A stretch of DNA of 44,172 nucleotides. Source: Calditerrivibrio sp. Lineage in GTDB: Bacteria > Chrysiogenota > Deferribacteres > Deferribacterales > Calditerrivibrionaceae. The notes under the pieces are model-generated. The model saw only the letters and a list, made by a program, of their open reading frames with translations. It was not told the DNA's origin and made no database searches. Both the position numbers and the translations under genes were made by a program. Numbering within the stretch: position 1 is the first letter of the stretch; each line of letters starts with the position of its first letter. The DNA lies in the NCBI GenBank assembly GCA_026415135.1, contig JAOAHS010000060.1:1-44172 (forward strand), read 5' to 3'. Below, one piece after another: positions 6,389 to 23,908 of this stretch.

Positions 6389-7453
6389 ATGGTCTTTAGG
6401 TTAAGATTAGATCTTAAGGCACTATTAGGATTGTCACTTTTACTGTTGATTGTAATTTTTTACATAAAACTTCAAAATGTTGTGAATATCTTTGCAGTAT
6501 CTTTTTTGATCTCCTATATTCTGATTCCAATGGTTCATTGGGTGGAGCGCTTATTAAAAGTTCCACGGGTGATAGCTGTTTTGTTAATATTTTCACTTTT
6601 TACATTTGTAGTGGTCCTCGTGGCAGTTTTTTTTCTGCCTATTTTATATGCTGAAGTGATATCGGTAATAAAAGGGGTACCCAGCTATTTAGAGTTACTT
6701 TTAAATAAAGTACAAACGTTGCTCAGCAGATACGGTTACAGCATCGATTTTAATCAAATGACTGGTTTTCTTTTTGCTAAATTAAAAGAACATGGGACTT
6801 TTATCTTAAGTAGTTCCATGATGATCTTGGGGTCTGTTTTTTCTTCTTTGTCTACTTTTTTGGGTCTGTTCATAATCCCTGTGTTAGTTTTCTATTTTTT
6901 AAAGGATTTTGAATATATTTTAAAAAAGATGCTAAGGTTGATCACTGACAATACAGGTATAGACTTTTTTTATTATAACAAACAGTTTAATGAGATTTTG
7001 AGGAAGTATTTCAGAGGGCAGTTGTTGGTCTGTTTTTGTTTGGGGTTGATGTATGGGGCTTTAAATTTTTTGGTGGGTATAAATGGAGGATTTGCTATAG
7101 GTTTTATTTCTGGCCTACTTAGTTTTGTACCTTATCTGGGTTTTATTTTTGGCATTTCTATTTCTATTATCATGGCTTACGTCCAATTTACAGATTTGCT
7201 ACATCCTTTTATGGTTTTGATCGGGTTTGGAGTGGTTCAGGGGATAGAGAGCTATTTGCTCACACCTAAATTGGTTGGTGAGAGCTTAGGCTTACACCCT
7301 ATTGCAGTTATATTTTCTCTGTTTGTTGGTGGGTATCTTATGGGTGTTGGAGGGATGATTTTGTCCATTCCAGTTGCAGCTTTTTTGAAGATTGTTTTAG
7401 GTAATTATCTGGAGTTTATTTCTAAGAACAAAAATGTTGATAACTTACCATAA
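6389..7453 (+). CDS. AI-2E family transporter (PerM-like permease)
   Basis: The 354-residue integral membrane protein has about eight hydrophobic segments, a large soluble loop between residues 85 and 140, and the conserved C-terminal region GIESYLLTPKLVGESLGLHP that marks the AI-2E/PerM family. Members export autoinducer-2 or ions, or are of unknown substrate, so the substrate cannot be told from sequence. GGAG lies just upstream of the ATG. It is divergent from the NlpC/P60 gene (50-base gap) and is followed 18 bases later by ribF, with which it may be cotranscribed. Confidence 0.9.
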   Translation: MVFRLRLDLKALLGLSLLLLIVIFYIKLQNVVNIFAVSFLISYILIPMVHWVERLLKVPRVIAVLLIFSLFTFVVVLVAVFFLPILYAEVISVIKGVPSYLELLLNKVQTLLSRYGYSIDFNQMTGFLFAKLKEHGTFILSSSMMILGSVFSSLSTFLGLFIIPVLVFYFLKDFEYILKKMLRLITDNTGIDFFYYNKQFNEILRKYFRGQLLVCFCLGLMYGALNFLVGINGGFAIGFISGLLSFVPYLGFIFGISISIIMAYVQFTDLLHPFMVLIGFGVVQGIESYLLTPKLVGESLGLHPIAVIFSLFVGGYLMGVGGMILSIPVAAFLKIVLGNYLEFISKNKNVDNLP

Positions 7454-12716: not shown

Positions 12717-14624
12717 GTGTTTGTATTTTCTTTTGGAATAGAAACCGATAGGCTAAACGATATCCTGATAAGGTATGAGCCCTTTTCTGTTTTAAGCCCC
12801 TTAGAGATTGAGGAACTAACTGCTAAAATAGTTCTAAAAAAGTATAAAAAGGGCGAGATGCTAGTAACTCAGGGTCAGCCTGTGGAAAAGTGTATTAGAT
12901 TTGTATTGGATGGTTCTGCAAAAGTGTTTGTTATATCCGATACCGGGGATGAGGTTGTTGTTGATTACAGGTGTCAAGGGGATATCATTGGACTGTTGTC
13001 GATAGCTACAGAGGGTGGATCTTTGGTAAACGTTGTTGTTGTTGATGATTTGACCTGTTATGAGCTTTCAAAGGATGATCTATATGAACTTTTTTCTAAA
13101 AATTATAGATTTCTTGATAGCTTCCTAAACATATATGTAAAAAAATATCTTAGAAAGGTTAGTGCTGAGTTTAAAGAAAATGCTTTGTATTATGGCAGTA
13201 TAGATAGGCTGTTTTTTACATCACTTATATCTTATCTTGTGGTTAGTGACTATCCTTCTGTATCAAAAGATACATCAATACTGGAAGCAGCAAGGATGAT
13301 GATGGAGAAAAACTATAGCGCTGCTATTGTCTTAGAGAATGGGACAGCTCTTGGAATTATCACAGATAAGGATCTCCGAAAAAAAGTGGTAGCTAAAGGA
13401 TTAGATTATAATACACCAGTTAGTAGCGTTATGAGTTCTCCTGTTTTCACTGTGGAATCAGATATTACATGTTTTGAAGCTATAGTAAAGATGGTTTCCC
13501 TTGGTGTTCACCATCTTGTTGTCACAGACAACAGTAAGATATTAGGCGTTGTGGATAGTGAGTCACTGATGAATTTACAATCCTCCTCTCCTTTATCTTT
13601 TGCCCGTGAAATAGAGTTGCAGGAGTCAGTGGATCGTTTGTCAGAGCTCAGTGATAAGATAATAAATGTGTCTGCTACGATGTACAGAAATGGTTTTAGA
13701 GCTGAAAACATAACGAAGATAGTATCTGAGTTAAACGATAGAGTACTCAGGAGGATCATTGAGATCGGTATAAAGATTATAGGTGAGCCACCTGTTAGGT
13801 TTTGTTGGTTAGCTATGGGGAGTGAAGGAAGAAAAGAACAAACTTTTAGGACCGACCAAGACAATGGTATAATTTTTGAAGATGTTGATGATACCAGAAA
13901 AAAAGAGGTGGTTGCATACTTTAAATCTTTGGCTGAGTTTGTAAATGATGCCCTTATCAAATGTGGTTTCCCTCCGTGCCCGGGTAACTATATGGCAAGA
14001 AATCCTGAATGGTGCCAGCCTATATCTACCTGGAAAAGGTACTTTGAAAAGTTTTTTGCTATGCCAACAACAGATGCTGTTTTAAAAGGTCAGATTATCT
14101 TTGATTTTAGAGGGGTTTATGGTGATAAGAATCTCTCTTTGGAATTAAGAAACTTTATAAACAATTTAAAAAACAGATCCCTCTTTATAAATTTTATGGC
14201 AAAAGGTCTTGTTAATTATGGTTCCCCTCTAACATTTTTTGGGTCGTTTGTGACAGAGAAGGATGATAACGGTGATGAAACTTTTGATATCAAAAAAAAG
14301 GTACTTGCTCCACTTGTTGGTATAATCAGGCTTTTTGCTATAGAGGAGGGTTTAATGAGTTTATCTACTCTTGAAAGGATTAATGATCTTGTAAGGATAA
14401 GACACAAGGTCATCATAGAATACTATAGAGAAATAGAGCAGTCCTTTAATTTTTTACTCGATATAAGAATGCGTAATCAAATTTATCAATATATTTCAGG
14501 TTTAGAAGTAACCAATAACATAAAAGTTCAGTCCCTAAGTAGTATCGAGAGCAGAAATTTGAAATTGGCATGTCAGCTATTAGATAAGCTTCATGATGTT
14601 TTAAAAAGAAGGTATGGGTTATAA
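12717..14624 (+). CDS. cyclic-nucleotide-binding / CBS / DUF294 nucleotidyltransferase-like regulator
   Basis: The 635-residue cytoplasmic protein has four parts: a cNMP-binding (Crp-like) domain at about 20-150, two CBS repeats at about 175-295 (adenine-nucleotide sensors), a DUF294 putative nucleotidyltransferase domain with LAMGSEGRKEQTFRTDQDNG (from about residue 365), and a DUF294 C-terminal helical domain. The GSxxR and DQD residues expected of a GlnD-type nucleotidyltransferase are kept, so it may be catalytic. The start is GTG at 12717, 7 bases after AGGAG. This family is regularly encoded beside DUF4212 and acetate-type symporters, as here; a role in controlling the transporter is inferred. 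Ligand and target protein are unknown. Confidence 0.9.
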   Translation: MFVFSFGIETDRLNDILIRYEPFSVLSPLEIEELTAKIVLKKYKKGEMLVTQGQPVEKCIRFVLDGSAKVFVISDTGDEVVVDYRCQGDIIGLLSIATEGGSLVNVVVVDDLTCYELSKDDLYELFSKNYRFLDSFLNIYVKKYLRKVSAEFKENALYYGSIDRLFFTSLISYLVVSDYPSVSKDTSILEAARMMMEKNYSAAIVLENGTALGIITDKDLRKKVVAKGLDYNTPVSSVMSSPVFTVESDITCFEAIVKMVSLGVHHLVVTDNSKILGVVDSESLMNLQSSSPLSFAREIELQESVDRLSELSDKIINVSATMYRNGFRAENITKIVSELNDRVLRRIIEIGIKIIGEPPVRFCWLAMGSEGRKEQTFRTDQDNGIIFEDVDDTRKKEVVAYFKSLAEFVNDALIKCGFPPCPGNYMARNPEWCQPISTWKRYFEKFFAMPTTDAVLKGQIIFDFRGVYGDKNLSLELRNFINNLKNRSLFINFMAKGLVNYGSPLTFFGSFVTEKDDNGDETFDIKKKVLAPLVGIIRLFAIEEGLMSLSTLERINDLVRIRHKVIIEYYREIEQSFNFLLDIRMRNQIYQYISGLEVTNNIKVQSLSSIESRNLKLACQLLDKLHDVLKRRYGL

Positions 14625-14672
14625 GTTTATGGTCCTATTATGGACTATAAAATAACAATAAAGGAGGCTAGT

Positions 14673-14933
14673 ATGCAGGTCAATGAAAAGCTTCAGGCAT
14701 ACTGGAAGGAGAACCTAAAAGTTATCTTCATCCTTCTAGCTGTGTGGTTTGTTGTGTCGTATCTTTTTGGTATAATCATGGCTGATTCTCTTGATGCAAT
14801 CAGAATAGCAGGTTTTAAGTTGGGTTTCTGGTTTGCGAATCAGGGCTCTATTGTTATTTTTGTTATTCTTATCTATGTTTATGTTGCGTGGATGAACGCC
14901 ATAGATAAGAAATACGATGTGCATGAAGAATAG
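14673..14933 (+). CDS. DUF4212 small membrane subunit of a sodium:solute symporter
   Basis: The 86-residue protein has two membrane segments (about 18-40 and 52-75) after an amphipathic N-terminus; YWKENLKVIFILLAVWFVVS and the ending VYVAWMNAIDKKYD are typical of DUF4212. I chose ATG at 14673, preceded by AAGGAGG, over an ATG at 14640 without a ribosome site. It lies 13 bases before the large symporter gene, the invariant partner in this family, and is presumed to be its accessory subunit. Confidence 0.9.
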   Translation: MQVNEKLQAYWKENLKVIFILLAVWFVVSYLFGIIMADSLDAIRIAGFKLGFWFANQGSIVIFVILIYVYVAWMNAIDKKYDVHEE

Positions 14934-14946
14934 TGGGAGGTGTTAG

Positions 14947-16761
14947 ATGAGTATATTGGTTTGGACGTGGATTATAGTTGGTCTTTCTTTTGCTCTTTAT
15001 ATAGGGATTGCTATATGGTCAAAGGCATCATCCACTGGTGAGTTTTATGTAGCGGAAAAGCAGGTTCACCCTGTGGCTAATGGTATGGCGACAGCTGCTG
15101 ACTGGATGTCTGCGGCATCTTTCATCTCTATGGCTGGTATGATCTCTTTCATGGGTAGAGATGGTTCGATGTATCTCATGGGTTGGACTGGTGGTTATGT
15201 TCTTTTGGCACTACTACTTGCACCTTATCTTAGAAAGTATGGTAAGTACACAGTTCCCCAGTTTGTTGGTGACAGGTATTATTCTCAGACTGCTAGATTA
15301 GTTGCTCTTTTGTGTGCTATCTTTATATCAGTAGTTTATGTTGCTGGTCAGATGAGGGGTGTTGGTATCGTTTTCTCAAGGTTCCTTGAAGTTAGTATCA
15401 ATGCTGGTGTTATTATCGGTATGATTATAGTTCTTTTCTATGCTGTTTTGGGTGGGATGAAAGGTATTACTTATACTCAGGTTGCCCAGTATTTAGTTTT
15501 AATTATAGCGTACCTAATACCAGCTATTTTCATATCTATTATGATCACTGGTAATCCTATACCACCTTTAGGGTATGGTTCTACTGTTTCAGCAGGTGGT
15601 GGCCAGTTACTTGGTAGTGGAGAAGGTAAATATGTTTTGGATCTTCTTGATCAGCTCCACAAAGACTTGGGTTTTGCTGCTTACACAAGTGGACAGAAAC
15701 CACTTATAGATGTTTTCTTTATCACCTTTGCACTTATGGTGGGTACAGCAGGTCTTCCACACGTTATTATTAGGTTCTTTACAGTGCCAAAAGTTAAAGA
15801 TGCAAGAAGCTCTGCTGGTTGGGCACTGCTTTTCATTGCTATTCTTTATACTACAGCACCAGCTGTTGCAGCTTTTGCAAGAACAAACTTCCTTTTAACT
15901 ATCAATGGTAAAAAATATGAAGAAGCACCCAGCTGGTTTAAAAACTGGGAAAAGACAAAGCTTGTAGGTTTCCAGGACAAAGCGATTTATGAAACAGCAG
16001 ATGGTAAAAAGATCGCTGTTTATAAAACGAAAGATGGTGTTTTAAAATACAAAGATGGTAAAGAGGAGAAGGAGTTCAAGCCTGAAGGGATGAAGCTTGT
16101 CAAAGATTTTGATGGTATCATGACCATTGCAAAAGACCCAAATATAAACGAAGTTTCCGTTGATAGAGATATTATGGTTCTTGCAAACCCAGAAATTGCT
16201 AAACTTCCAGCTTGGGTTGTTGCTCTTGTTGCTGCTGGTGGTTTGGCTGCAGCTCTTTCTACCGCTGCTGGACTTTTGATAGTTATCTCATCTGCTATCT
16301 CCCATGACTTGGTAAAGTCTATTATTGCTCCTAACATGAGTGAAAAATCTGAGATGGTTTGGGCAAGGGTAGCAGCATTTTTGGCAGTGGTTGCTGCAGG
16401 GTATTTTGGTATTAATCCTCCTGGATTTGTTGCTCAGGTGGTGGCATTTGCATTTGGTCTTGCTGCTGCATCTTTCTTCCCAGTTATCATACTTGGTATT
16501 TTCTGGAAGAGAGCCAACAAAGAGGGTGCTATTGCTGGTATGCTTGTGGGTATAATATTTACTGCTTGGTATATCATCTATTTCAAATTTATAAATACCG
16601 ATCCTAAGGCATGGTGGTTTGGTATATCTCCTGAGGGTATTGGTACTGTTGGTATGATTCTTAACTTTGTGACAATGGTTGTAGTTTCTCTTATGACAAA
16701 GGAACCACCGAAAGAGGTGCAGGATCTTGTAGAGAGCGTTCGTTACCCAAGAGAATCTTAA
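14947..16761 (+). CDS. cation:acetate-type sodium/solute symporter
   Basis: The 604-residue inner-membrane protein belongs to the sodium:solute symporter family, with about 13 membrane segments (SKASSTGEFYVAEKQVHP and ANGMATAADWMSAASFISMAG near the start). A soluble insert of about 85 residues (roughly 325-405, rich in Lys, Asp and Glu) splits the membrane core. The insert and the DUF4212 partner match the VC_2705-type subfamily close to ActP, which suggests acetate or another short carboxylate driven by sodium. GGGAGG precedes the ATG. A terminator follows directly. Substrate is inferred from the family only. Confidence 0.92.
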   Translation: MSILVWTWIIVGLSFALYIGIAIWSKASSTGEFYVAEKQVHPVANGMATAADWMSAASFISMAGMISFMGRDGSMYLMGWTGGYVLLALLLAPYLRKYGKYTVPQFVGDRYYSQTARLVALLCAIFISVVYVAGQMRGVGIVFSRFLEVSINAGVIIGMIIVLFYAVLGGMKGITYTQVAQYLVLIIAYLIPAIFISIMITGNPIPPLGYGSTVSAGGGQLLGSGEGKYVLDLLDQLHKDLGFAAYTSGQKPLIDVFFITFALMVGTAGLPHVIIRFFTVPKVKDARSSAGWALLFIAILYTTAPAVAAFARTNFLLTINGKKYEEAPSWFKNWEKTKLVGFQDKAIYETADGKKIAVYKTKDGVLKYKDGKEEKEFKPEGMKLVKDFDGIMTIAKDPNINEVSVDRDIMVLANPEIAKLPAWVVALVAAGGLAAALSTAAGLLIVISSAISHDLVKSIIAPNMSEKSEMVWARVAAFLAVVAAGYFGINPPGFVAQVVAFAFGLAAASFFPVIILGIFWKRANKEGAIAGMLVGIIFTAWYIIYFKFINTDPKAWWFGISPEGIGTVGMILNFVTMVVVSLMTKEPPKEVQDLVESVRYPRES

Positions 16762-16879: not shown

Positions 16880-16907
16880 AGAGTCAAAAAACCAAAGGAG
16901 GTATTTG

Positions 16908-18641
16908 ATGAAAAAAGTTTTGATACTTTGTTTAGGTTTTATGTTGGTTTCCTTTGGTGGAGTGGCGTTTGCAGCAAAAACAACACCCGACAAAACCCCT
17001 GATTATGCTAAGGTGGTTCAAAAAGGTGTTGACTTTACAATATGCTATGGGTGCCACGACACTGTAAAAGAATTAAGGGGTATGGGCAAACACTCAAAGA
17101 TTGCATGTGAAAATTGCCATGGGAACATTCAAGAGCATTTGAAAAATCCTAAAAATCATCCCGTTGTATTCACAGAATGGCAAGCTTGTGGTAAATGCCA
17201 TAAGGAGCAGTTCGAGACATTTATGCAGGTTAATAAACATAGGCCAGCAAGGGATGAGAAGTCTCAGTTAACAAATAGGTCACCAAACCCATTTTGGGAT
17301 AAGCTGATGATGGGTCATGGTTTTACGAAGGAACATTCCCTTACAAGAAGCCATCCTTTTGCACTTCTTGATCAGATCTTGGTTGATAGGGCTACTGGTG
17401 GAAGGTTTCAGCCTAAAAACGGATGGATGTATGTGAGTGATGGACCTAAAAAGATATGGGATGTTTTAGTGGATACACAGCCTGATGTAAAAGAGCACAA
17501 AGTGCATATGAAGCAGACTGCAGCAGCTCTTAATCCAGTCTGTTTCTCATGTAAGACACAAGATCATATTTTAGATTGGGCATATATGGGTGATCCAAAT
17601 GTTGGGGCACCATTCTCAAGAAAAAGCAATCCTGTTGAGATGATAAACTCTAAAAAGATGCAACACGGTCTCACATGCTATACCTGCCATGATCCCCATG
17701 CAGCTAAACCAAGGATCGTTAGAGATGCCCTTATAGCTGCACTTACAAAGCCAGATGGAGATACATTGTGGCACAAAGATCCAAATAAAACTAAATTTAC
17801 CGTTAAAGATATGGGCATGAGGGGTTATACAAGGAAGATTGCAATTCTTGAAAAGTATGACTCAAAACTTCAGTGTGGCCAGTGCCATGTGGAGTATGTA
17901 TGTAACCCTGGATTTGAGCGTAAGAGTGGTAAACCTGTAACCTTTGATGATATAAGGACAAACCATTTTCCATTTAAAGATGTGTTCTCAATCTATGATC
18001 ACTATGTAAATCAGCTTGACTTTACAGATTTTATACATCCACTTACCGGAGCAAAACTTATCAAGTTCCAGCATCCAGAGGTGGAAGCATTTTATAACTC
18101 CAAGCATGACAAGGCAGGGGTTGGATGTGATACATGCCATACTCCTAAGATGAAGGATAAAAAGAGTGGTAAAGTTTATACTTCTCATTTTGCCGTATCA
18201 CCAAAACACAATCTGAAAGCTTCCTGTCTGTCTGGAAATTGTCATAAGGGCTGGACTGAAGAGGATGCTAAGCATTCTATAGATTCAGTAAAAGCATACA
18301 TAAAGGGTAAGATGAGGAAGGCAGAGTTCTGGCTATCTACACTTATAGATAAGATAGTAGAAGCAAGGAATGCTGATCTGCCTGCTGATATCATTGCAAA
18401 AGCACAGGATTATCATGTCAGGGCTCACTTCTTATGGGAGTGGTGGACAGCTGAAAACTCTGATGGTTTCCATAATCCTCAGCAGGCAAGGGAATCTCTA
18501 GCACAGTCGATAGATGCATCCATGGCTGGTGTAAAACTGATAGATGATGCTCTAAAAGCTAAGAAAGCAGCAGCACAGCAGGCTGCTCAAACTCAAACAC
18601 AAACTCAAACCCAGACTCAACCCCAACAGCAGGCAAAATAG
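16908..18641 (+). CDS. octaheme cytochrome c nitrite reductase (ammonia-forming)
   Basis: This 577-residue periplasmic enzyme should reduce nitrite to ammonium with six electrons. After a signal peptide (residues 1-22) there are eight heme sites: CYGCH 46-50, CENCH 67-71, CGKCH 94-98, CFSCK 212-216, CYTCH 257-261, CGQCH 323-327, CDTCH 407-411 and CLSGNCH 440-446. The fourth is the CXXCK site of a lysine-ligated catalytic heme. Y330 and C332 (HVEYVC) and Q388/H389 (QHPE) match the active site of the Thioalkalivibrio octaheme enzyme, where the Tyr and Cys are covalently linked; R161 or R166 is the likely catalytic Arg. Three extra N-terminal hemes separate it from pentaheme NrfA. The last heme site is CX4CH, and the tail is Gln/Thr-rich. 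ATG 16908 follows AGGAGG; no NrfH-type donor is adjacent. Confidence 0.92.
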   Translation: MKKVLILCLGFMLVSFGGVAFAAKTTPDKTPDYAKVVQKGVDFTICYGCHDTVKELRGMGKHSKIACENCHGNIQEHLKNPKNHPVVFTEWQACGKCHKEQFETFMQVNKHRPARDEKSQLTNRSPNPFWDKLMMGHGFTKEHSLTRSHPFALLDQILVDRATGGRFQPKNGWMYVSDGPKKIWDVLVDTQPDVKEHKVHMKQTAAALNPVCFSCKTQDHILDWAYMGDPNVGAPFSRKSNPVEMINSKKMQHGLTCYTCHDPHAAKPRIVRDALIAALTKPDGDTLWHKDPNKTKFTVKDMGMRGYTRKIAILEKYDSKLQCGQCHVEYVCNPGFERKSGKPVTFDDIRTNHFPFKDVFSIYDHYVNQLDFTDFIHPLTGAKLIKFQHPEVEAFYNSKHDKAGVGCDTCHTPKMKDKKSGKVYTSHFAVSPKHNLKASCLSGNCHKGWTEEDAKHSIDSVKAYIKGKMRKAEFWLSTLIDKIVEARNADLPADIIAKAQDYHVRAHFLWEWWTAENSDGFHNPQQARESLAQSIDASMAGVKLIDDALKAKKAAAQQAAQTQTQTQTQTQPQQQAK

Positions 18642-18665: not shown

Positions 18666-18694
18666 AAAGGCGGCTTTAAGCCGCCTTTATTTTG
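18666..18694 (+). terminator. intrinsic terminator after the nitrite reductase
   Basis: AAAGGCGGC pairs with GCCGCCTTT around TTTAA, followed by TATTTTG. Read-through would reach the ResB/CcsA genes that start about 40 bases later, so it may set a high ratio of enzyme to maturation proteins. Confidence 0.85.
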
Positions 18695-18732: not shown

Positions 18733-20115
18733 ATGAAAAAAATATTGGATTTTTTCAGTTCATTAAAGTTAGCGTTAATATTATTTTTCATATTAATTTT
18801 AATGTCTGCAATAGGCTCTTTTATTTCAGCTGCAAATCCAACCTCTGGGCTTATAGATTTTCTGAGTAGATCAACAGGTAAAAGCCATCAACAGATAGTA
18901 TTTTTTTTGCAGAGGTATGGTTTGTTGGATCTGTATCATTCGAAGATTTTTGTAGTTTTATTAATATTTTTTACCATTAACATTGTTGTATGTACCCTTA
19001 AGAGATTACCCAGTATAGTAAAGATTTTTTTAACTGATGTAACTAATACTTTTAAAGTAAATGAAGAAAAAGAAGCCGTTAAGATCTCCTCTGATAAAGA
19101 AACAAAAGATATTATTAACCAATTATATCAAATTTTCAAAGGTTATAAGACTGATGAAAGGACCTTAGAAGATAACGTCATCTATTTTAGGGCAGAAAGG
19201 GGAAGGGTAAGTAGAATTGGAGTACATGTGGTTCATTTCGGTGTATTAGTGCTAATTTTATCGGGCATAATGGGTAACATGTTCGGCTACAATGGGAATA
19301 TAGCTATATTAGAAGGTGATATTGATGACACTGTTATAATGAAGGATAATAAAAGCTTTAAACTACCTTTCAGTGTTAAGTTAAACAATGTTTTGGTGTC
19401 ATATTATGATAACACCACAAAGCCGAAAGATTTTAGTTCTGAAATTGTTATTAAAAAAGATGGAAAACCAGATGAATTTTATACTATAGGTGTTAATAGA
19501 CCTTTAAAGTATGAAGGCTTAAAAATATTTCAAGCAAGTTATGGATTTTATCCCTCTAAGGATGTTCAATTTAAGTTTCTATACAGAGGTACTGAAGGGG
19601 AAAAGAGAATTTCTGCTAAGATGGACGAACTTGTTAGTATCACTAATGAATTGGGACTTGTTGTAAGGGATTTTATACCTTCGTTGAGTATGGATAGTGA
19701 GGGTAAGCTTATAAATATAAACGATGTTATGATTAACCCTGCTGTATTAGTGGAATTCTTTTATAAAGGTGCCTCACAAGGGATAGTCCCTATACTTGCA
19801 AATTATCCGGATACTTGGAGGTTTCAGGGATTTGATCTGCAGTTTGAAAAAGCGTATGGTGTGCAGTTTTCTGTTTTTTCTATAAATTATAATCCATTTA
19901 TACCCCTTATATATATTGGTTTTGTCTTACTGTCTGTTGGTATAGTCATAGCATATATAGTGGAACATAAAATCATATATATAAAGATCGTTGATAATGG
20001 TAAAAGGAGAGAAATTATAATGTCAGGATACAGGCATCGATTCAAGCAGGATACATTAAGTATGCTTGAATCCATTGGAAGAAAGATTGATCAATATTTG
20101 GGAGTGGAAAAGTGA
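18733..20115 (+). CDS. resB: cytochrome c biogenesis protein ResB (Ccs1)
   Basis: The 460-residue membrane protein of the System II heme-ligation complex has two N-terminal membrane segments (about 10-30 and 75-95), a third near 160-180, a large periplasmic domain (about 185-385) and a C-terminal membrane segment (about 390-412). KILDFFSSLKLALILFFILILMSAIGSFI is the typical ResB start. ResB and CcsA carry heme and reduced apocytochrome together. It overlaps ccsA by four bases (GTGA) and directly follows the octaheme reductase, so its job here probably includes that enzyme. Confidence 0.93.
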   Translation: MKKILDFFSSLKLALILFFILILMSAIGSFISAANPTSGLIDFLSRSTGKSHQQIVFFLQRYGLLDLYHSKIFVVLLIFFTINIVVCTLKRLPSIVKIFLTDVTNTFKVNEEKEAVKISSDKETKDIINQLYQIFKGYKTDERTLEDNVIYFRAERGRVSRIGVHVVHFGVLVLILSGIMGNMFGYNGNIAILEGDIDDTVIMKDNKSFKLPFSVKLNNVLVSYYDNTTKPKDFSSEIVIKKDGKPDEFYTIGVNRPLKYEGLKIFQASYGFYPSKDVQFKFLYRGTEGEKRISAKMDELVSITNELGLVVRDFIPSLSMDSEGKLININDVMINPAVLVEFFYKGASQGIVPILANYPDTWRFQGFDLQFEKAYGVQFSVFSINYNPFIPLIYIGFVLLSVGIVIAYIVEHKIIYIKIVDNGKRREIIMSGYRHRFKQDTLSMLESIGRKIDQYLGVEK

Positions 20116-21158
20116 ATGATAGTTTGATGTTTGGTGTTGCTTCTTTGATGTATTTGCTGTCGATGTTTTTTTATATTGTCCATCTATTTGTAAGAAAAAA
20201 AATGATAGGATTGTTAGCTACCTATACATGCTTTCTTGGGTTTATAATACATACTGTTGCTTTTCTTGGTAGATGGTATCATTTGTATGTCAAGTTTAAT
20301 ATGCCCATAATCCAGTCTATACCTATTACTAATCTTTACGAGTCGTTACTGTTTTTTGCGTGGAGTATCATTTTAGGTAATTTTATAATAGAAAAATGGT
20401 TTAAGACCCGTCTATTTGGAGCTTTTATCACAGCAATTGCAGGTATGTCTATTGCTTTTGTAGATGCTGTTGGAGCTAGTAAGTTAGTTCAACCGGTGCT
20501 CCCTGCTTTAAAAAGTAACTGGTTATTGGCTCATGCATCGTTGAGCTTTTTGGCATATGCGGCGTTTACTTTATCTTTCAGTGCTGCAATTGTTAATTTA
20601 GCAACAAAGTGTAATAATAGAAAAAGTATGGTTTATCTTTTTTGGACTTTGTCGTTTTCTGTGTTCATCTATACTACTGGGATTATTCTAACTAATGTTG
20701 CATTTAAATTGACTAAGGGTACTAATCTGTTAAAAGCTTTTGAAGGATTGGGTATCTTCCTTTGTTTGGGCTTTTTTGTAGTATTTGCATTCGTATGGAT
20801 TTTGGGTGTTAAAATAGGTGCTTTTTTATCTAAATTTATACCCGAGCAACTATCCATAGAGATGGTGGAATTTAGGTTTATTTCTATAGGTTTTTTGATA
20901 TTTACAATTGGGGGGCTTGTGTTTGGTGCGATTTGGGCTGATATATCTTGGGGTAGATATTGGGCTTGGGATCCAAAGGAAACGTGGGCTTTTGTAACAT
21001 GGCTTGTTTATGCTTTTTACCTTCATATGAGATTGATAAGAGGGTACGATGGTCTTAGATCATCGGTACTTGCTGTTATTGGATTTTTGATTACTATTTT
21101 TACATACATAGGGGTAAATCTACTCATGCCGGGGTTGCATTCTTATGGTGGGATGTAA
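20112..21158 (+). CDS. ccsA: cytochrome c biogenesis protein CcsA (ResC-type heme handling)
   Basis: The 348-residue protein has about eight to nine membrane segments and the tryptophan-rich heme-binding motif WAWDPKETW at residues 284-292, with flanking histidines expected as heme ligands (for example the HLR-type H near 305 and LHSYGGM at the end). It belongs to the heme-handling family of CcmC, CcmF and CcsA. The start is GTG, overlapping the resB stop. With ResB it forms the complete System II synthetase. In Wolinella a fused homologue, NrfI, is dedicated to the CXXCK heme of NrfA, and a similar specialisation here is possible. The 156-base gap to the convergent mtgA holds only AT-rich sequence. 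Confidence 0.95.
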   Translation: MNDSLMFGVASLMYLLSMFFYIVHLFVRKKMIGLLATYTCFLGFIIHTVAFLGRWYHLYVKFNMPIIQSIPITNLYESLLFFAWSIILGNFIIEKWFKTRLFGAFITAIAGMSIAFVDAVGASKLVQPVLPALKSNWLLAHASLSFLAYAAFTLSFSAAIVNLATKCNNRKSMVYLFWTLSFSVFIYTTGIILTNVAFKLTKGTNLLKAFEGLGIFLCLGFFVVFAFVWILGVKIGAFLSKFIPEQLSIEMVEFRFISIGFLIFTIGGLVFGAIWADISWGRYWAWDPKETWAFVTWLVYAFYLHMRLIRGYDGLRSSVLAVIGFLITIFTYIGVNLLMPGLHSYGGM

Positions 21159-22249: not shown

Positions 22250-22615
<366 letters not shown>

Positions 22616-22624
22616 GAGGATAAA

Positions 22625-23908
22625 ATGAAAAAGATATTTTTTGTTTTAATGCTTTTAGCTTCATCTGCAGTGGGTTTTGCCAGTGATAAACCTACTCTTA
22701 ATGCGGCAGATACAGCGTGGGTTATAACAGCTACTGCCCTTGTGATGCTTATGACACCTGCTGGGCTGGCTCTCTTTTATGGTGGGATGACAAGAAGTAA
22801 AAATATCCTAAATACCATAGGTATGAGTTTTATGGGTTATGCGGTAGCATCGGTTTTGTGGGTGGTAGTTCTCTTTAGTTTAGCATTTGGTCCTGATGTG
22901 GGTGGTATAATAGGTAGTCTGGATCATGTCTTTCTAAATAATATAAAGATTAGTGATTTGCAGGGTACAATACCAAAAATTCTTTTTGTTGTCTTTCAGA
23001 TGACTTTTGCTGGTATTACGTTGGCTCTCGTGAGTGGTTCTATTGTGGAGAGGGTAAAGTTTGGTTTTTGGATGGTTTTTAGTGTGTTATGGTTAATACT
23101 GGTGTATGCTCCAATTGCCCATTGGGTATGGGGTGGAGGCTTTATCGGTGCTATGGGTGCCCTTGATTTTGCTGGTGGGACAGTAGTGCATATAAATGCT
23201 GGTGTTAGCGGGTTGGTTTTAGCACTTCTTGCTGGAAAAAGAAGGGACTATGGTAAAACAGCCATAATTCCATCTTCAATAGCATTAACAGTGTTAGGAG
23301 CTGCATTGTTATGGTTTGGCTGGTTTGGCTTTAATGCTGGTAGCCAGTTGGCTGCTGATGGGATTGCTGCAAATGCGTTTTTGGTCACAAATACTTCTGC
23401 TGCTATGGGGGCAATTACATGGATCATTATTGAGTGGATTGTTGCAAAGCGTCCAACAATGCTTGGCGCAGCATCTGGTGCAATAGCTGGTCTTGTTGCC
23501 ATAACACCTGCAGCTGGTTTTGTATCTGCACCAGCATCAGTTTTGTTTGGTATTTTATCTGGAATAGTGGGTTTCTTTGGTGTGTTTGTGCTAAAGAGCA
23601 AGCTCAAGTATGATGACTCCCTCGATGCTTTTGGGGTGCATGGTCTTTGTGGGATGTTGGGGGCAATTCTTACGGGGGTCTTTGCAAGTCCAGAAATAAA
23701 CCCTATAGGTAAGGGGCTCTTGTATGGGAATCCAGGTCAGGTTTGGGTACAGTTTGTGTCTGTAGTTGTTACTATAGTCTATTCGGCGATTTTAACTGCG
23801 GTTATCTTCTATATTACAAAGTTATTTGTGTCTGTTAGGGTGGATGATGAGGCAGAACTAAAAGGTTTAGATGAAGTTGAACACGGAGAGAGGGGATTTA
23901 ATATATAA
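22625..23908 (+). CDS. amtB: ammonium transporter
   Basis: The 427-residue Amt/Rh channel has a signal-like N-terminus (about 1-19) and eleven membrane segments. The pore twin histidines are H189 (VVHINAGVSG) and H339 (FGVHGLCGMLG), and the family motif DFAGGTVVHINAG is intact. It should take up ammonium across the inner membrane. It forms one transcript with glnK, and an intrinsic terminator follows. Confidence 0.97.
   Translation: MKKIFFVLMLLASSAVGFASDKPTLNAADTAWVITATALVMLMTPAGLALFYGGMTRSKNILNTIGMSFMGYAVASVLWVVVLFSLAFGPDVGGIIGSLDHVFLNNIKISDLQGTIPKILFVVFQMTFAGITLALVSGSIVERVKFGFWMVFSVLWLILVYAPIAHWVWGGGFIGAMGALDFAGGTVVHINAGVSGLVLALLAGKRRDYGKTAIIPSSIALTVLGAALLWFGWFGFNAGSQLAADGIAANAFLVTNTSAAMGAITWIIIEWIVAKRPTMLGAASGAIAGLVAITPAAGFVSAPASVLFGILSGIVGFFGVFVLKSKLKYDDSLDAFGVHGLCGMLGAILTGVFASPEINPIGKGLLYGNPGQVWVQFVSVVVTIVYSAILTAVIFYITKLFVSVRVDDEAELKGLDEVEHGERGFNI

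Follow-up and report, generated by a model that had tools for sequence, protein, structure and literature searches.

An octaheme nitrite reductase gene followed by resB-ccsA in Calditerrivibrio

The window (the whole 44,172-nucleotide stretch of DNA that was analysed, contig C60 of a Calditerrivibrio genome of 1.98 Mb and 99.96% completeness) carries on its forward strand the gene onr, encoding an octaheme cytochrome c nitrite reductase (ONR), with genes for System II cytochrome c synthesis behind it and a glnK-amtB pair further downstream (22250..23908). The features of the locus, with residue counterparts in the Thioalkalivibrio enzyme (TvNiR), are as follows:

16894..16901, + strand: Shine-Dalgarno-like AAAGGAGG ahead of the onr ATG, from the sequence
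16908..18641, + strand: onr, octaheme cytochrome c nitrite reductase, 577 aa (phmmer, fold, tree)
16908..16976, + strand: predicted Sec signal peptide of ONR, MKKVLILCLGFMLVSFGGVAFAA, by eye from the translation
17388..17390, + strand: R161, counterpart of the catalytic R131 of TvNiR, aligned within DRAxGGRFQ and invariant in 41 ONRs
17541..17555, + strand: heme 4 site CFSCK, in which K216 is the active-site heme ligand (TvNiR K188), from the alignment of 41 ONRs
17886..17903, + strand: HVEYVC, residues 327-332, with the heme 6 ligand His327, E329 (Ca-ligand position) and Y330/C332 (TvNiR Y303/C305)
18069..18074, + strand: Q388-H389 of QHPE 388-391 (TvNiR Q360, H361)
18225..18245, + strand: heme 8 site CLSGNCH, CX4CH replacing CXXCH, from the sequence and comparison with other ONRs
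18666..18688, + strand: terminator-like hairpin between onr and resB, from the sequence
18733..20115, + strand: resB (ccsB), System II cytochrome c synthase subunit (PF05140, 230 bits)
20112..21158, + strand: ccsA, System II heme handling/lyase subunit with the WWD motif WAWDPKE (TIGR03144, 222.7 bits; cut-off 187.6)
22250-22615, + strand: P-II regulator, glnK (PF00543, 120 bits)
22625-23908, + strand: ammonium transporter, amtB (PF00909, 413 bits)

The onr frame starts with ATG, and a chance or wrong frame is ruled out by the 577-aa open reading frame together with its phmmer match to a solved ONR (E = 3.5e-148 over 509 residues). Since a Sec signal peptide is predicted at its N-terminus, the enzyme is expected to be periplasmic; residues 1-30 were of low confidence in the predicted model, and the C-terminus (residues about 554-577, window 18567-18638) forms a low-complexity Gln/Thr/Ala tail. 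Promoter-like matches for onr were fewer than in shuffled sequences. Directly 5' of onr (12717-16761) lie genes for a CBS/cNMP DUF294 protein, a DUF4212 small subunit and an SSF symporter, and another Calditerrivibrio (L002) has the same gene order, which did not recur at ONR loci from beyond the genus.

The reading of this gene as an octaheme nitrite reductase in the initial annotation was borne out by sequence, predicted fold and phylogeny. In phmmer searches against the PDB the best match, over nearly the whole mature protein, was the ONR of Trichlorobacter ammonificans (8rv0; 498 bits, 48% identity), followed by that of Thioalkalivibrio (2ot4, 3f29; 480 bits, 44% identity), as against at most 91 bits for NrfA. 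An AlphaFold model built from 41 ONR sequences (pLDDT 87.5, pTM 0.86) superimposed on these two enzymes with target-normalised TM scores of 0.95 and 0.94, respectively, and rmsd values of 1.7-1.9, and thus has the ONR fold; the scores to NrfA were 0.63-0.72, and MccA gave no significant fold match. In a tree of 110 rows including NrfA, HAO and OTR, which was inferred by a quick search and holds some long branches, the window ONR was nested with those of Calditerrivibrio and of Geovibrionaceae (SH-aLRT 100 for each), and these nested sets were independent of the long branches. The closest named relatives of the host genome are Calditerrivibrio, and the ONRs of congeners are 78-79% identical to this one. 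Positions 16908-18641 hence encode an ordinary octaheme nitrite reductase, a member of a known family.

Eight heme c attachment sites were found, as had been claimed: CYGCH (residue 46), CENCH (67), CGKCH (94), CFSCK (212-216), CYTCH (257), CGQCH (323), CDTCH (407) and an eighth at residue 440. The last of these departs from the earlier description, in that CLSGNCH is a CX4CH and not a CXXCH motif. Checking of the translation placed K216, HVEYVC with Y330 and C332, and QHPE with Q388 and H389 where they had been reported, and the spacings given for TvNiR also proved right, since its K188, Y303 and H361 give 115 and 58 residues against 114 and 59 here. The grouping of active-site residues around heme 4 was examined through one-to-one alignment with structurally solved ONRs, in which R161, K216, Y330, C332, Q388 and H389 matched R131, K188, Y303, C305, Q360 and H361 of Thioalkalivibrio; the same residues and E329 were invariant among 41 ONRs. 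The protein therefore has the fourth-site CXXCK, the catalytic Arg, Lys, Tyr and His, the Glu and Gln of the Ca site and the active-site Tyr-X-Cys pair of the family, the middle residue of that pair being V in Calditerrivibrio and N in TvNiR. A thioether between Y330 and C332 is predicted. Heme 4 would be where the six-electron reduction of nitrite to ammonium takes place, with K216 of CFSCK as the proximal ligand, whilst R161, Y330 (with its predicted link to C332) and H389 would form the distal pocket.

The eighth heme site distinguishes this enzyme from both solved ONRs, the site being CLNCH in TvNiR and likewise a CXXCH in T. ammonificans, which belongs to another phylum. Across 95 ONRs the eighth motif was of the CX4C type in 40, the window ONR included, and CXXCH in 55, and with the motif's own columns removed from the alignment its type required five changes on the tree. 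All sampled Deferribacterota ONRs had CX4C at this position. A limited search of open-licence literature found no relevant description of CX4CH in an ONR. The CX4CH motif is known from tetraheme cytochromes c3, and for this reason we regard it at heme 8 as a tolerated loop and not as new chemistry; the loop changed several times within the family. Some variants were seen around the site. In one genome (G027; locus L179, reverse complement of 6575-6595, the same gene as at L095) the site reads CLTGKCY, the heme-8 His having been replaced by Tyr (codon TAC) in an otherwise intact frame, and Mucispirillum-type ONRs (L048-L054, L094, L096, L106, L109-L116) have an insertion of some 20 residues right behind the CX4CH. 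At the other end of the protein, two ONRs of family f6 (L171 in G030, L173 in G029) begin with lipoprotein-like signals, FSGCS and VAGCT, which suggests that these may be membrane-anchored.

The two genes behind onr, on which the initial annotation made no comment, encode a ResB-domain protein and a CcsA protein with the WWD motif, and so belong to a System II synthase. Wherever the flanking sequence is long enough, they follow onr on the same strand in families f1 (Calditerrivibrio), f5 (Geovibrionaceae-type) and f7 (Mucispirillum-type), which are three of the four ONR-bearing Deferribacterota families; Calditerrivibrio nitroreducens and other Deferribacterota share the gene, the CX4CH heme 8 site and the onr-resB-ccsA order, and differ in sequence divergence only. 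By tblastn and profile search, resB-ccsA was absent beside onr at all ONR loci examined outside the phylum. In a phylum set of 51 genomes, ONR was found in 28 and a strong standalone ResB in 24. Amongst the 39 of these that are at least 90% complete, 23 had both, one had ONR only (family f6), none had ResB only and 15 had neither, such that a strong standalone ResB accompanied ONR in 23 of 24 genomes and occurred in 0 of 15 others; these are raw counts that include shared descent. Two exceptions coincide with contig ends, one just past resB where onr would be expected (G007) and the other inside resB (G048). The four genomes of family f6 have ONR and no ResB, despite the same CXXCK and CX4CH sites. 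The PF05140 profile also matched frames that are fused and CcsBA-like, some 840-990 aa in length, and lie away from onr (G001-G003 and several of G039-G048).

The host also encodes System I, with CcmA, CcmB, CcmC, CcmE and CcmF clustered on contig C27. Its CcmE carries C-x3-Y (CPSKY), as does the Desulfovibrio variant of System I. System I genes were found behind onr elsewhere: in Rhodoferax (L075, L078, L081) onr is followed by an NrfE/CcmF-type gene together with one that is NrfG-like, whilst a Hydrogenophilaceae genome (L076) has ccmA and ccmB in this place, the series running on through additional genes to one of the NrfE type. The heme lyases adjoining onr therefore derive from both System I and System II, though most ONR loci outside the phylum have no heme lyase adjacent.

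On this gene linkage and co-occurrence, the evidence tips somewhat towards ResB-CcsA being a dedicated System II lyase that attaches heme to ONR. The pair would mature ONR, and the CXXCK is probably the site served; other host cytochromes c could use System I. The precedents are NrfI of Wolinella, NrfEFG of E. coli and SirEF of Shewanella, where the neighbour of the heme lyase genes likewise encodes a multiheme reductase, one of whose heme sites is non-standard (PMC12285233, PMC6976685, PMC10663686). The present case differs from them in that ResB and CcsA are unfused, the enzyme is octaheme and the host has System I as well. A broader proposition, to which we give even odds, is that Deferribacterota keep the unfused ResB-CcsA solely for ONR (for the CXXCK site, the CX4CH site or both) and mature their other c-type cytochromes by System I, in convergence with NrfI, NrfEFG and SirEF. 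Within this proposition, CX4CH as the cause of the need is weakened by family f6, which has CX4CH and no ResB, and by several Nitrospirota and Myxococcota-like ONRs with CX4CH and no adjacent lyase. A strict requirement of CXXCK for ResB-CcsA is weakened by the same family, and since its ONR has identical sites without ResB, the pair is not universally required.

These f6 genomes also speak for the main alternative, that ResB-CcsA belongs to the general machinery of System II, or has been inherited along with onr as a passenger, and plays no particular part in maturing ONR. Adjacency is by itself no proof of function, and the terminator-like hairpin, which was present in the same gap at the other Deferribacterota loci checked, parts onr from resB, so that the two may be separate transcripts. 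However, the ONR-less genomes of the phylum lack a strong standalone ResB, ResB without ONR occurs in 0 of the 39 near-complete genomes, and the host possesses CcmABCEF; we thus consider this alternative doubtful, at well below even odds. A 2025 review counts the Wolinella NrfI as the one System II lyase so far confirmed for CXXCK, and describes the solution in other such organisms as unknown (PMC12285233). The conserved onr-resB-ccsA cassette, being absent from ONR-less relatives, offers a testable second case.

ONR was the sole PF02335 protein retrieved from the host genome by profile search, and napM, A, D, G and H lie together on contig C11. Elsewhere, the neighbours of onr include nap genes, both in a MAG of Geobacter (L030) and, within the Deferribacterota, in family f6 (L171, L172), and this linkage in two phyla supports a route from nitrate through nitrite to ammonium. 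Because the genome has a single gene of the NrfA/ONR type together with napMADGH, nitrate ammonification by Nap followed by ONR is the best reading, with nitrite putatively supplied by the periplasmic nitrate reductase encoded away from onr.

With regard to the electron donor, no NrfH-type quinol dehydrogenase lies beside onr, in agreement with the initial annotation, and the genome search for NrfH- or CymA-type cytochromes that it had called for retrieved one NapC/NirT multiheme protein, away from onr. This sole PF03264 match, on contig C29, is 517 aa long, contains 11 CXXCH motifs and carries a hydrophobic helix at its N-terminus. Every one of the 39 near-complete phylum-set genomes had PF03264 matches, whether ONR was present or absent, which argues against a quinol dehydrogenase specific to ONR and makes the protein a candidate for a general quinol-dehydrogenase hub. 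It is likely to be the quinol-side donor, in which case electrons would pass from menaquinol through this membrane multiheme cytochrome to ONR, either directly or by a periplasmic carrier. The outlying family f10 instead has an NrfH-size PF03264 match of 163-165 aa, and in G002 and G003 this gene lies just 3' of a pentaheme NrfA gene, in contrast with onr.

Published surveys bear on the same pathway in the genus. One lists C. nitroreducens as nrfA-positive and as producing ammonium from nitrate (PMC6896113, Table 2), whilst another reports its genome to be without NrfA-like cytochromes (PMC11896075). That its enzyme is an ONR explains both. Its ONR had already been listed (PMC5433712), so the presence of ONR in Calditerrivibrio is not new; the present analysis confirms that a hot-spring Calditerrivibrio carries the octaheme and not the pentaheme ammonifying enzyme.

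Taken as a whole, a periplasmic ONR fed with nitrite by Nap and with electrons by the NapC/NirT route is the explanation we favour, at a probability of about 0.9, activity and electron route being inferred from the genome. The claim that ammonium is made from nitrite by an octaheme enzyme and not by NrfAH is upheld by the single PF02335 protein, by napMADGH and by ammonium formation in C. nitroreducens, but its corollary, that no other enzyme shares in this, is only likely, because an OTR-type octaheme gene, a second candidate, is also present in the genome.

An unlikely alternative is that ONR mainly serves to detoxify nitrite, or to reduce hydroxylamine, sulfite or some other oxyanion, in place of nitrite respiration. 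It is consistent with sulfite complexes among the solved Thioalkalivibrio structures, with a survey in which Seleniivibrio and Mucispirillum carry nrfA and nap yet are not recorded as reducing nitrate (PMC6896113, Table 2), and with the Onr of a termite symbiont having been proposed as a nitrite detoxifier (PMC12887300); the onr-nap linkage in two phyla, the ammonium formed from nitrate by C. nitroreducens and napMADGH in the host itself argue for respiration. More improbable still is that the OTR-type cytochrome serves as the main nitrite reductase with ONR as an accessory. Its gene on contig C35 (L140:8743-10131, G000:C35) scored 582 bits with TIGR04315 (cut-off 375), yet OTR was not found in the other Calditerrivibrio genomes compared, of which G006 and G008 keep onr, and the gene adjoins, as judged by eye, apparent sulfur amino-acid genes and not nitrogen genes.

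That the window protein is itself a relative of HAO, MccA/SirA or pentaheme NrfA can be dismissed almost with certainty, for although a common multiheme ancestry and the Pfam match, Cytochrom_C552 (PF02335), a family that also covers NrfA, might suggest it, sequence, tree, residues and fold contradict it. Pentaheme NrfA or NrfAH is ruled out by the eight hemes, the lack of an adjacent NrfH, the separate NrfA group in the tree and the fold, and MccA by the lack of a fold match. NrfA, HAO and OTR each formed one side of a branch, so that the placement with HAO or OTR that was looked for as a refutation did not appear; HAO is ruled out by its separation (support 98), by the CXXCK and by the absence of any PF13447 match from the host genome, in a search that was positive in 13 of the 51 phylum-set genomes, and OTR, whose eight sites are CXXCH with no CXXCK among them, by its separation (support 99) and by the TIGR04315 match being another gene. 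Across those 51 genomes, ONR (28 genomes) and HAO (13 genomes) were almost mutually exclusive, both being present only in G027.
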